From: a virus
Length of the DNA: 51,515 nucleotides
Reading direction: 5' to 3' (one strand)
IMG/VR virus record: IMGVR_UViG_3300045999_011051
Coordinates: 1 to 51,515 of that record
The notes beneath the pieces were generated by a model. The model was given only the letters and a program-made list of their open reading frames with translations, searched no databases and was not told where the DNA came from. Of the stretch, positions 3,524 through 7,645 are shown one piece after another (positions within the stretch are counted from its first letter, which is position 1; each line of letters opens with the position of its first letter). Both the position numbers and the translations under genes were made by a program.

Positions 3524-4099
3524 TCAGCCTGCCTGCGCGATCTGCTGTGCGGTGGCGTCGTCTCGGGTGGGCCAGGCGACGGCTGCGAGCGCTGCGGCGT
3601 GGTGGGCTCGGGTGGGGACGTTCCAGCCGAGGTGTTGGGCGCCGATGGTGGCGAGGGCGAGGGCGTCCCATTCGTCGTCGGTGCGGGCGTCGATGTCGGG
3701 CCAGAGGCGGGCGATGGCGACGCCGACTTCGGTCTTGCCGGCGTTGCCGCGGGTGGTGGCGAACTTGGCTCGGGTGGCGGGTGGGACGACGGCGGTGGGG
3801 ATGTGGTGGGCGTGGAGGCGTTCGTAGACGGCCCACCAGAGGCCGGCGCGGTCGTGGACTCCGGCTTGGCGTCCGGAGCCGTAGGAGGGGCCTTCGAGGA
3901 GGGCGAGTGTGGGTGGTTCGGTGCCGGCGGTGATGCGGTCGGCGAGGGTTTCGAGTCGGTGTCGGCGGGCTTCCCAGGTGTTGTCGGTGGGCTTGCTGGT
4001 GTGGGTGCCGCAGTGGGCGGAGGTGAGTTCGGGGGTGTGGGCGATGACGGCCCAGCCGGTGGAGGTGAGGGAGAGGTCGAGGCCGAGGACGTAGGTCAT
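3524..4099 (-). CDS. RuvC-like Holliday junction resolvase
   Basis: A 191-residue RNase H-fold nuclease. The start LGLDLSLTSTGWAV gives the first catalytic Asp (8), LALLEGPSYG the Glu (69), and DDEWDALALA near 141-150 the C-terminal acidic pair, the DEDD layout of RuvC. Phage RuvC homologues resolve branched DNA before packaging, which fits its place as first gene of the packaging operon. The ATG at 4099 begins the conserved strand directly; upstream in-frame sequence lies in the repeat-rich intergenic region and is not coding. Confidence 0.85.
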   Translation of the reverse strand: MTYVLGLDLSLTSTGWAVIAHTPELTSAHCGTHTSKPTDNTWEARRHRLETLADRITAGTEPPTLALLEGPSYGSGRQAGVHDRAGLWWAVYERLHAHHIPTAVVPPATRAKFATTRGNAGKTEVGVAIARLWPDIDARTDDEWDALALATIGAQHLGWNVPTRAHHAAALAAVAWPTRDDATAQQIAQAG

Positions 4100-4367
4100 G
4101 GTGGGCTCCGTGGTGTGGACGTGTTGGGGGGTGTACGTGCGCCTTCGTGAACCGTGTACATCGCGTACACCGTGTACGTGCGCTCTTGTGTACATCGGGT
4201 CTCTCACACGCGGAGTCCGATTTCTCTCGTATTTCTTACTCTTAGTAATCAGTTCGCGACACTGCGTAGAGATTTCTGTCGCCGACGTCGAGCGACCACG
4301 TACACGACTTACACGATGTACACGCACTCCAAGATGCCTGGACTGTCCACGTGATAGCGTCCACATC
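4100..4367. promoter_or_regulatory. Divergent intergenic region with GTGTAC array and AT-rich core (possible operator or origin)
   Basis: 268 bp between the leftward RuvC gene and the rightward RHH gene. GTGTAC or its complement GTACAC occurs at 4131, 4154, 4165, 4172, 4188, 4300 and 4318. The copies at 4154 and 4165 form a perfect dyad, GTGTAC-5-GTACAC (4154-4170). 18-bp spacings occur on each side (4154 to 4172; 4300 to 4318). The groups flank an AT-rich patch at about 4210-4285, exceptional in this GC-rich genome. It must hold promoters for both flanking genes; its position beside the RHH gene and near the primase also suits a replication origin. Confidence 0.65.
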
Positions 4368-4751
4368 ATGTCGAAGCGGGCGCTGCCGATCACCGTCGAG
4401 ATGCACCAGCACCAGTACGCCGTCTTCGCCGCCGCAGCCCGAGCCAGAGGGCTCACCCCGTCCGGGCTGCTGGAGCTGCTGGCCGAGACGTTCGTCGTCA
4501 CCCAGCAGCTCCCGGCGCGCACACCGGGGCGAGCCGGCGCTACCCCCGCCGACCCGTTGGACCGCATCGGGGAGCTGCTGGCTCGCCTGGTGCAGCGCGA
4601 CGGCCCGATCACCGTGGGCGCCGCATGGCGGTCGCTGTCACACCGCGACCGGCAACGCGGCCGCGACGTGTTCGACCAGGCCGTCGAACGAGCCGTCGAG
4701 CGCGGCATGATCACGGCCGGACCGGACGGTCTGGCCCCGGTCACCGGCTAG
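4368..4751 (+). CDS. RHH DNA-binding protein with primase-like C-terminal domain
   Basis: A 127-residue protein starting at the ATG after ACATC. Residues 1-45 read as a ribbon-helix-helix: a strand (ALPITVEM), then a helix, a turn at GLTPSG and a second helix. After a Pro/Ala linker, residues about 65-127 contain GAAWRSLSHRDRQ and GRDVFDQA, closely matching the C-terminus of the convergent primase/helicase-like protein (GAAWRAVAYRDRQ, GREVFEAA). The two genes overlap by 11 bp tail to tail. It is the only rightward gene before 19 kb. It probably binds the GTGTAC sites in its own promoter region; a role in loading or regulating the helicase is inference. Confidence 0.75.
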   Translation: MSKRALPITVEMHQHQYAVFAAAARARGLTPSGLLELLAETFVVTQQLPARTPGRAGATPADPLDRIGELLARLVQRDGPITVGAAWRSLSHRDRQRGRDVFDQAVERAVERGMITAGPDGLAPVTG

Positions 4752-4889
4752 CCTCGGCGATCGAGGTGATCCCGTGCTCACCGCGCACGAACATGCCGTG
4801 CGCTGACCCGTAGTCCAGGGCGGCCTCGAACACCTCACGGCCGCCCTGCTGACGGTCGCGGTAGGCCACGGCCCGCCATGCGGCACCGT
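4619..4889. repeat. Imperfect long inverted repeat across a convergent gene junction
   Basis: The arms are about 4619-4683 and 4820-4889. They arise because the convergent RHH and primase/helicase-like genes encode homologous C-terminal domains, so similar DNA lies in inverted orientation. A shared block on the coding strands is GCCGCATGGCGG. Transcripts through the junction could fold or anneal, though with many mismatches. Confidence 0.6.
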
Positions 4890-6222
4890 TGGTGAGTCCA
4901 CCTTCCTCGTCGGCGCGACGGGCGAGCCGGTCGGCGATGCGCTTCACGGTGGACTCCAGCCCGGTGACGGCGGCTTCGATGCGGAGCTGCTGGTCGACCT
5001 TGTCGCGGGTGGCCCGCTCCCTTTCCTTCTTCCGGGCGGTGGCGCCGATCTCGAGGAGCCCGTCGCGGACGGCGCAGGAGGTGTCCCACACGATCTGGGA
5101 CAGCGCCCAGTCGTCGACGGTGATGTCGGTGCGGCCGTCGAGGAGCGCGAGGAGCGCGGCGACCTTGGACCGGAGGAGGGGTTCGTGGGCGTCGAGAGGT
5201 GCGACGGTGGTTTCGCCGCGGGCGAGGGCGATCTTCCGCTGCCAGAGTTCGTCGCGGATCTCGTCGGCGGCGGGCATGACGCCGGTGATCGGCCAGCCAC
5301 CTTCAGTGGTGAGCGGGATGTAGAGGGGTCCGGGGTGCTCGATGCGCTGGTCGGGGACCGAGGGGTCGTGGGCGGAGCACCACAGGAACCGTTGGGGGGT
5401 GCCGGGCCCGGAGTCGGCGAGCAGGGGTGCGGCGGTGTCGGGTTGGTAGCCGACGAGCATGCCGAGGCTGTAGGTGCCGGCGGCGATGACGCGCATGCGG
5501 TCTTCGGAGGCGTTGGCTTGGCCGAGGACTTCCCCGACCCAGGCGGAGCGGATGGTGGGGCCGATGGTGGCGCCGGACCGTTCGGCGGTGCGGGTGAGTT
5601 GTTCGCCTTCGTCGACGGAGAAGAACGCGTGGTGGCGGACCTGTTGGCGGACGCGGATGGTCTTGGTCTTGCCCTTGCGGTCGGTGTCGTCGGTGTCTTG
5701 GACGACGACGCCCATGAACGCTTCGGCCATGCCTTCGCCGGAGCCGAGGGGTAGGCCGTCCCAGAAGGTGGGGCGGCCGTCTTCGGTGGTGCGGTTGAGG
5801 TGGGCGGGGGTGTGGACGAGTTCGCGGGCGAGTTTGGCGCCGGTGGTTTTCCCGATGCCGGAGGTGCCGACGGCGGCGACGAACAGGTTGAGGCTGCCGG
5901 GGCCGAGGCCGACGTCGAAGCGGAGGTTGGGGTCGACCATGCCGGAGAGGCGGGCGAGGACGCCGTGGAGGACGGCGTCGGCGGAGCAGAGGCGGGAGTG
6001 GGCGGCGGTCTGGATGTGTTTGAGCTCGGGGCGGGCGGCCCAGAAGTCGTCGGGGAGGTTGGGGAGGTCGGGTGTGGCGGCGTGGTCGCTGTCGGGGGTG
6101 CGGGTCTGGGTGGCGGTGTGTTCGTGTTCGGCCATGACGGCGGCGAGGTAGGCCTCGTCGTCGGCGGGGTCGGTGGTGATGGGTAGGTCGACGATGTCGG
6201 CCCACCGGTCGGGGGCGGTCAT
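4741..6222 (-). CDS. P-loop primase/helicase-type replication ATPase (DUF3987-like)
   Basis: A 493-residue protein. The acidic N-terminus leads into an ATPase core with Walker A GTSGIGKTT (119-127) and an acidic FFSVDEGEQL segment fitting Walker B. A Lys/Arg-rich coil (ARKKERERATRDK) joins the core to a C-terminal domain of about 60 residues with GAAWRAVAYRDRQ, shared with the convergent RHH protein. DUF3987-like proteins act as replicative primase/helicases or loaders in phages. The ATG at 6222 overlaps the previous stop by four bases. It is the distal gene of the long replication/recombination operon. Confidence 0.75.
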   Translation of the reverse strand: MTAPDRWADIVDLPITTDPADDEAYLAAVMAEHEHTATQTRTPDSDHAATPDLPNLPDDFWAARPELKHIQTAAHSRLCSADAVLHGVLARLSGMVDPNLRFDVGLGPGSLNLFVAAVGTSGIGKTTGAKLARELVHTPAHLNRTTEDGRPTFWDGLPLGSGEGMAEAFMGVVVQDTDDTDRKGKTKTIRVRQQVRHHAFFSVDEGEQLTRTAERSGATIGPTIRSAWVGEVLGQANASEDRMRVIAAGTYSLGMLVGYQPDTAAPLLADSGPGTPQRFLWCSAHDPSVPDQRIEHPGPLYIPLTTEGGWPITGVMPAADEIRDELWQRKIALARGETTVAPLDAHEPLLRSKVAALLALLDGRTDITVDDWALSQIVWDTSCAVRDGLLEIGATARKKERERATRDKVDQQLRIEAAVTGLESTVKRIADRLARRADEEGGLTNGAAWRAVAYRDRQQGGREVFEAALDYGSAHGMFVRGEHGITSIAEASR

Positions 6223-7232: not shown

Positions 7233-7645
7233 GCGCTCTCCTCCTCTTCCTGCTGGTCGGTGTCGCGGTTGCGGTCGGCGGTGATGGCGGCGTGTTCGGC
7301 TTGGTCGCCGCAGTCGGCGCAGAGGCGGAGGCCGTGGAGGTGCGCGACGGGCCGGCCGATGTGGATGACGGTGGGGCAGCGGTCGCAGTCGATGGGTGCG
7401 GTGCGGTTGTCGGTCCAGGAGGGCCAGACGTGGCGGCCGCCGAGGTGCCATCCGGTGCCGCCGTTGGGGCAGCGGTAGGCGTTCATCTGGGTGCCGACGG
7501 CGTCGGGGTAGAGCGCGCGGAGAGCGCGTCGCGCACTGCGCCGGTCGGGGTACGAGCGCTTGCGGCAGTACCCGCACGGCGACGGGCTCTGCCACGACGC
7601 GGATGCAGGGCGGTACTCGCTGATGGACCAGCGCTTGCGCTTCAC
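7229..7645 (-). CDS. Small zinc-ribbon protein
   Basis: A 138-residue protein starting VKRKRWSISEY. It has two likely metal sites: CGYC paired with a downstream YRCPNGGTGWHLGG segment, a signature seen in many small actinophage proteins, and DCDRC paired with LCADCG. The tail is acidic (QQEEEESA). The GTG at 7645 overlaps the preceding stop by four bases; the earlier in-frame ATG near 7696 would overlap the upstream gene by over 50 bases and is less likely. Function unknown. Confidence 0.6.
   Translation of the reverse strand: MKRKRWSISEYRPASASWQSPSPCGYCRKRSYPDRRSARRALRALYPDAVGTQMNAYRCPNGGTGWHLGGRHVWPSWTDNRTAPIDCDRCPTVIHIGRPVAHLHGLRLCADCGDQAEHAAITADRNRDTDQQEEEESA

Follow-up and report, generated by a model that had tools for sequence, protein, structure and literature searches.

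The locus and its repeat array

The DNA analysed here, referred to hereafter as the window, is the whole stretch of 51,515 nt that makes up positions 1–51,515 of IMG/VR record IMGVR_UViG_3300045999_011051. It carries a convergent gene pair. A protein of 127 residues, with a probable ribbon-helix-helix (RHH) head and a winged-helix tail, is encoded on the plus strand at 4368–4751, and a 493-residue DUF3987/MCM-like AAA+ helicase, a putative initiator, is encoded on the minus strand at 4741–6222. The genes overlap tail to tail by 11 bp (4741–4751), at the axis of an inverted similarity described below. Both open reading frames and their overlap were found where the initial annotation had placed them. 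The small gene shows the GC content by codon position expected of coding DNA (0.77/0.54/0.89). A start farther out, at 4098, was ruled out, as codon-position GC is flat there. No nucleotide match to the pair region was found among known phages.

The small gene starts 45 bp beyond an array of GTGTAC repeats and reads towards the helicase gene, the order in the window being helicase gene, small gene and then array. A motif search placed five GTGTAC sites in a first cluster (4131–4193), and two such sites plus one variant in a second (4300–4323). Between the clusters lies an AT-rich stretch at about 4220–4279 (62% AT, against a mean of 28%), which is a candidate unwinding element. The array, which had been noticed initially, is real: 7 of the 17 exact GTGTAC sites in the window fall within the 193 bp of 4131–4323. 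We infer that this array functions as an origin.

Two features border the array. Two GTCCAC sites (4345–4364) immediately precede the start of the small gene; they correspond to the commoner GTGGAC type of iteron, the adjacent array being of the GTGTAC type. Immediately past the array on the other side, the minus strand encodes a protein starting MTYVLGLDLSLTSTGW (3524–4099), which is RuvC-like by eye. In Gordonia phages, too, a Holliday-junction resolvase gene follows the primase gene at a distance of a few genes.

The helicase belongs to the DUF3987 family

The PF13148 (DUF3987) profile matched the helicase with 30.5 bits, above the curated cut-off of 27, which makes it a member of the family. 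It also matches PHROG families of phage DNA polymerase/primase. The structural model (pLDDT 91) has an AAA+ fold of the MCM kind followed by a C-terminal winged helix, the recognition helix of which begins at residue 454; the best PDB matches were MCM subunits (E 1e-6), but the TM score by query reached only about 0.35. A Walker A segment, GTSGIGKTT, was read from the sequence at residues 119–127 (5842–5868, minus strand), and its GK is invariant in the alignment. The protein had been labelled a primase/helicase and should be called a helicase, since the AEP primase (Prim-Pol) domain, PF09250, was searched for across the window and was not found.

Relatives of the helicase are annotated as DNA primase/polymerase in Gordonia, Mycobacterium and Tsukamurella phages. 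Closer relatives are encoded by a Nonomuraea plasmid with terminase genes (45%), by viral contigs and by actinobacterial genomes. A genome scan with the window helicase as sole query returned nothing, and one with the helicase alignment as query returned 16 loci. The plasmid, Nonomuraea gerenzanensis plasmid III (L014), combines its terminase genes and helicase with a TGTGGACA iteron array at 7300–7490, divided by an AT-rich stretch. On the strength of the terminase genes and of the helicase with its array, it looks like a phage-plasmid.

The two proteins end in homologous winged helices

The RHH protein and the P-loop protein had been described as ending in homologous domains. Alignment of residues 64–125 of the small protein with residues 426–488 of the helicase gave 40% identity and 63% positives over 63 residues (E 1e-12, for a single comparison). 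A profile was then built from C-terminal sequences of 40 further helicases, excluding the two window proteins. This comparison had been set beforehand as the one on which the similarity could fail, and the similarity was significant, the tails of the small protein and of the window helicase being recovered with E values of 5e-11 and 4e-10 respectively. Because a profile built without either window protein finds both tails, the similarity reflects homology. What the two tails share is the winged helix that DUF3987/MCM-like phage helicases carry at the C-terminus.

Homology, profile and model together place the winged helix at residues 63–127 of the small protein (4554–4748, plus strand), where it is modelled with a pLDDT of about 93–98, and at residues 424–493 of the helicase (4744–4953, minus strand). 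GAAWR is common to both window tails. In helicase tails, a motif of the form x-RD-[R/K] sits at the start of the recognition helix; it reads YRDR at residues 454–457 of the window helicase (4852–4863, minus strand), which include the top covarying columns discussed below, and its counterpart in the small protein is HRDR at residues 92–95 (4641–4652, plus strand). What comes next is a lineage-specific insertion: both window tails have 4–5 additional residues after RDRQ that are absent from all 40 of the other helicase tails in the first alignment. The two tails form a clade with support of 92/97 in a tree from which the insertion columns were left out, and in BLAST they match each other with E 1e-10, the nearest other helicase following at E 1e-4.

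At the DNA level the homology appears as an imperfect inverted repeat, in which 4609–4895 matches itself at 67%. Randomisation according to codon usage gave an expectation of 117 ± 3.4 identical bases, and 115 were observed. The protein similarity thus fully accounts for that of the DNA, and the duplication is old. A recent inverted duplication was ruled out: synonymous sites are saturated, and the 67% repeat is predicted by the protein similarity. The repeat has its axis at the two stop codons, which is compatible with an ancient tail-to-tail duplication but no proof of one.

The head of the small protein comprises residues 1–47 (4368–4508, plus strand). No library gave a significant match to an RHH family, the best being RelB at E 0.1, below the cut-off, followed by an unnamed PHROG at E 0.16. 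The small protein had no match in NCBIfam, and a fold search with it returned nothing significant in the PDB or among viral models. The RHH head that had been named initially is thus confirmed by no profile library. The monomer model shows two helices in the head, at residues 8–26 and 31–46, with moderate confidence, and on this model an RHH fold is plausible.

Helicase tails covary with iteron sequence

An iteron array was present in about half of 88 helicase loci (within 900 bp after the helicase stop), clearly above shuffled controls. Iterons directly downstream of the helicase gene, which characterize SaPI Rep-type initiators, are found in the window as well. The order iterons, AT-rich stretch, iterons was seen in 10 of the 10 loci examined, the window included. 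The iteron core varies among phages, with GTGGACA, GTGTACA, GGGGACA, GGGAACA, GAGTACA and others represented.

The core was written as X1X2X3X4ACA, and every column of the tail was scanned for association with X2 and X4; a tree built from the ATPase part served as control. Using iteron classes that were hand-assigned and not blind in this first scan, the best column by far for X2 was the residue after RD: all 15 loci with G have K there, and all 37 with T have R. There were five changes on the tree, and the phylogenetically independent pairs were concordant in four of four cases, a number with which a sign test is unable to pass 0.05. For X4 the best column was the residue before RD. Of the 10 loci with T, 9 have something other than S or G there, as do 3 of the 45 loci with G; independent pairs stood at about 6.5 to 0 (p 0.016). 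The idea of a recognition code arose after the alignment had been viewed, and the later scan took in all tail columns.

When iterons were classed automatically from the downstream DNA, X2 was concordant in 44 of 47 loci (Fisher 1e-8) and X4 was again associated (Fisher 2e-5); both Fisher values take no account of kinship. Applied to upstream DNA as a control, the automatic rule classified only four loci. Six loci are then exceptions to one or the other covariation rule (L017, L029, L044, L082, L087 and L106). The tail of L029 breaks the base-2 rule; this locus is absent from the hand-classed set and is an exception in the automatic set.

Comparison of sister helicases pointed the same way. Where sisters have different iterons, identity was 98% in the ATPase versus 70% in the tail for Tarzan/Santhid, and 93% versus 39% for L023/L025. 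Over all close pairs, which are non-independent, the median gap was 0.28 if iterons differ and 0.075 if they are the same (p 9e-10). The covariation, and the divergence of tails when the iterons of sisters differ, are most simply explained if the tail reads the iteron. The covariation strongly suggests that the C-terminal domain of the helicase binds iterons, and the shared tail domain very probably reads DNA. The Gordonia phages in this set (Tarzan, Santhid, Reyja; L005 versus L006/L012) have ATPases that are 97–98% identical and helicase tails that are 70–72% identical, with GTGGACA versus CTGGAAA iterons. Judging from these sequences, the reading head seems to have been exchanged in nature.

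In the window, the YRDR of the helicase and the HRDR of the small protein both fall in the class of the adjacent array, GTGTAC. Among helicases, H before RD occurs only in L068; the small protein is therefore placed in its base-4 class mainly because this residue is neither S nor G.

These data bear on another role that had been proposed for the common domain, namely contact between the two proteins. The domain would then pair with its copy, and the small protein would attach to the helicase rather than to DNA. Winged helices can act as contact domains, and the two window tails are each other's closest relatives. Pure contact, however, would predict neither covariation of tail and iteron at the start of the recognition helix nor divergence of the tail when iterons change. 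We regard this role as very improbable; the covariation points instead to a DNA-reading head. The shared C-terminal domain and the link to initiation that had been suggested are supported.

Small proteins with the tail domain in other phages

Among the data searched, the convergent pair was found in this phage and in one contig that is 99.99% identical, and nowhere else. Searches for the small protein itself covered 50,697 phage records, 72,556 plasmids (best E 0.08), viral contigs and seven helicase-bearing genomes (best E 0.018), and none yielded it elsewhere. The confinement of the exact pair to one phage counts against the role proposed below for the small gene.

The helicase-tail profile did detect four other small proteins, each beside a helicase gene and an array, in three other phages (L060, L029 and L111). 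They scored E 3e-5 or better, and the next match was at 0.02. With flanks of about 4 kb searched, a small protein with the tail domain was thus present at 4 of about 95 distinct helicase loci. The expectation that the pairing would recur in relatives is borne out only in this looser form: the exact convergent arrangement stays with this phage and its near-identical contig, and the small proteins that carry this domain beside the putative origin in the three other phages are different ones.

The four proteins are diverse. Two consecutive small winged-helix genes (5650–5934 and 5960–6195) lie beside a GTGGAC array in L060 (IMGVR_UViG_3300043313_001108); the first encodes nothing but a winged helix, 94 residues long, with the motif SADR, whose S and R are those expected for GTGGAC. 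The small protein of L029 (IMGVR_UViG_3300049437_000042) is encoded at about 5030–5347, downstream of the helicase gene and a GGGGACCGGTCCCC array, and its head (TILFDGELWVSVADMAR) is Bro-N-like by eye. In L111 a small open reading frame ending at 4806, right after the helicase gene, has a winged-helix tail (E 1e-11) and another head, and iterons overlap its 5' region. The small tail of L029 groups with the tail of its own helicase (support 100/92), as in the window, and that of L060 does not. To judge from these relationships, the reading head probably arose more than once on a small origin-linked protein.

Possible roles of the small protein at the origin

We propose that the helicase settles on the GTGTAC iterons through its winged-helix tail and then opens the AT-rich segment between the iteron clusters at 4131–4323. 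Through an old duplication, a convergent second gene would have acquired this reading head, and its product combines it with a dimerisation-type, probably RHH, head and lacks an ATPase. Having the same reading head and no motor, the small protein should sit on the same repeats; it most likely occupies the GTGTAC iterons, which are also just upstream of its own gene. Occupation of the iterons of the helicase, and of a site upstream of its own gene, would make it a competitor of the helicase for the origin, serving as a brake or timer that regulates itself. We consider this role, and with it a negative sign of the effect, somewhat favoured. Two functional readings survive, and a decoy that regulates the helicase, as suggested initially, is the one we prefer.

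The main rival to a brake is a co-initiator. Bound to the same iterons, the small protein could equally be helping to load or position the helicase, for example by bending the array or by joining the clusters through dimerising heads. It shares both reading head and array class with the helicase, the clusters flank an AT-rich stretch that a dimer could bridge, and such small proteins recur beside the array. On the other hand, a protein of this sort lies within the fetched DNA at no more than 4 of about 95 distinct helicase loci, so that the family does not in general need one, and in L060 one of the small proteins, a bare winged helix, lacks a dimerising head. We judge a co-initiator possible and rather unlikely.

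Control of transcription alone has a lower probability still. The array would then be an operator for the small gene and for the leftward genes beyond it, with the domain used as a site reader and no direct role at the origin. The array is directly upstream of the small gene, which is transcribed against the neighbouring genes and has the two further GTCCAC sites ahead of its start codon. Binding to the iterons would alter access of the helicase anyway, however, and relatives have arrays without any small gene. This makes a role in transcription alone improbable in our estimation.

Comparison with known systems

The self-loading initiator helicases SaPI Rep and SCCmec Cch2 have a C-terminal domain that recognizes short iterons directly downstream of their own gene (PMC7581432). 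The window resembles them in having iterons downstream of the helicase gene and a C-terminal reader, the binding of which is predicted here. It differs in that the ATPase is a DUF3987 protein of actinobacterial phages, in that iterons lie on both sides of the AT-rich segment, and in encoding, besides the helicase, a small protein that shares its reading head. In PrimQH-type AEP proteins, as described in the available part of PMC5862659, the DUF3987 ATPase is a predicted helicase and the C-terminal winged helix a predicted origin reader. Relatives of the window helicase in Gordonia and Mycobacterium phages are likewise annotated as primase/polymerase; unlike in PrimQH, no AEP domain accompanies the helicase in the window. 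Iterons and residue-to-base covariation do not feature in that part of the PrimQH account. C-terminal recognition of iterons was thus already known for SaPI Rep, and a DUF3987 helicase with an origin-reading winged helix already existed as a prediction (PMC5862659, in the part available).

A brake of the kind preferred here has precedents in PrpA and in RepR' of pIGRK. The PrpA family, PF03693, is presumably of the RHH type. PrpA, of the PrpT/PrpA pair, binds origin iterons and blocks the initiator, according to the accessible portion of PMC7848731. Like the predicted action of the window protein, this places a small DNA-binding protein at iterons. Unlike the window protein, PrpA serves as antitoxin in a toxin pair, and the same portion mentions no domain shared with the initiator; the reading head of the window protein is homologous to that of the initiator. 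RepR' is an initiator fragment that acts as a negative regulator of replication (PMC6854812). It arises from an internal start in the same gene, whereas the window protein comes from a separate, convergent gene and has another head. Plasmid pRN1 encodes ORF56, a small repressor/copy-control protein, next to the replication protein ORF904, which has a C-terminal winged helix (PMC4234260, in the sections available). This is an archaeal plasmid without iterons, and those sections mention no domain shared by ORF56 and ORF904. In the open-access literature we found no report of iterons for DUF3987 phage helicases, of residue-to-base covariation or of a small protein sharing the reading head of an initiator, and, as far as found, no tests of how the DUF3987 helicases of phages or phage-plasmids find their origins.

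Taken as a whole, we put forward tentatively, and with the balance slightly against it, that phage MCM-like initiator helicases carry a readable origin code, in which the residue after RD (K or R) would specify G or T at base 2 and the residue before RD would specify base 4, and that several phages have copied the reading head onto small proteins controlling the origin, here on a convergent, tail-overlapping gene derived from an old inverted duplication of the 3' end of the helicase gene. The covariation amounts to a two-residue prediction of the iteron read by each helicase, and natural sister pairs differ in both. The origin specificity and incompatibility of these replicons thereby become directly testable. 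A copy of the initiator's reading head is a direct route to a matched competitor, and a phage may regulate its own origin in this way; the paired genes would thereby gain a reason, namely regulation of the origin by a copied reading head.
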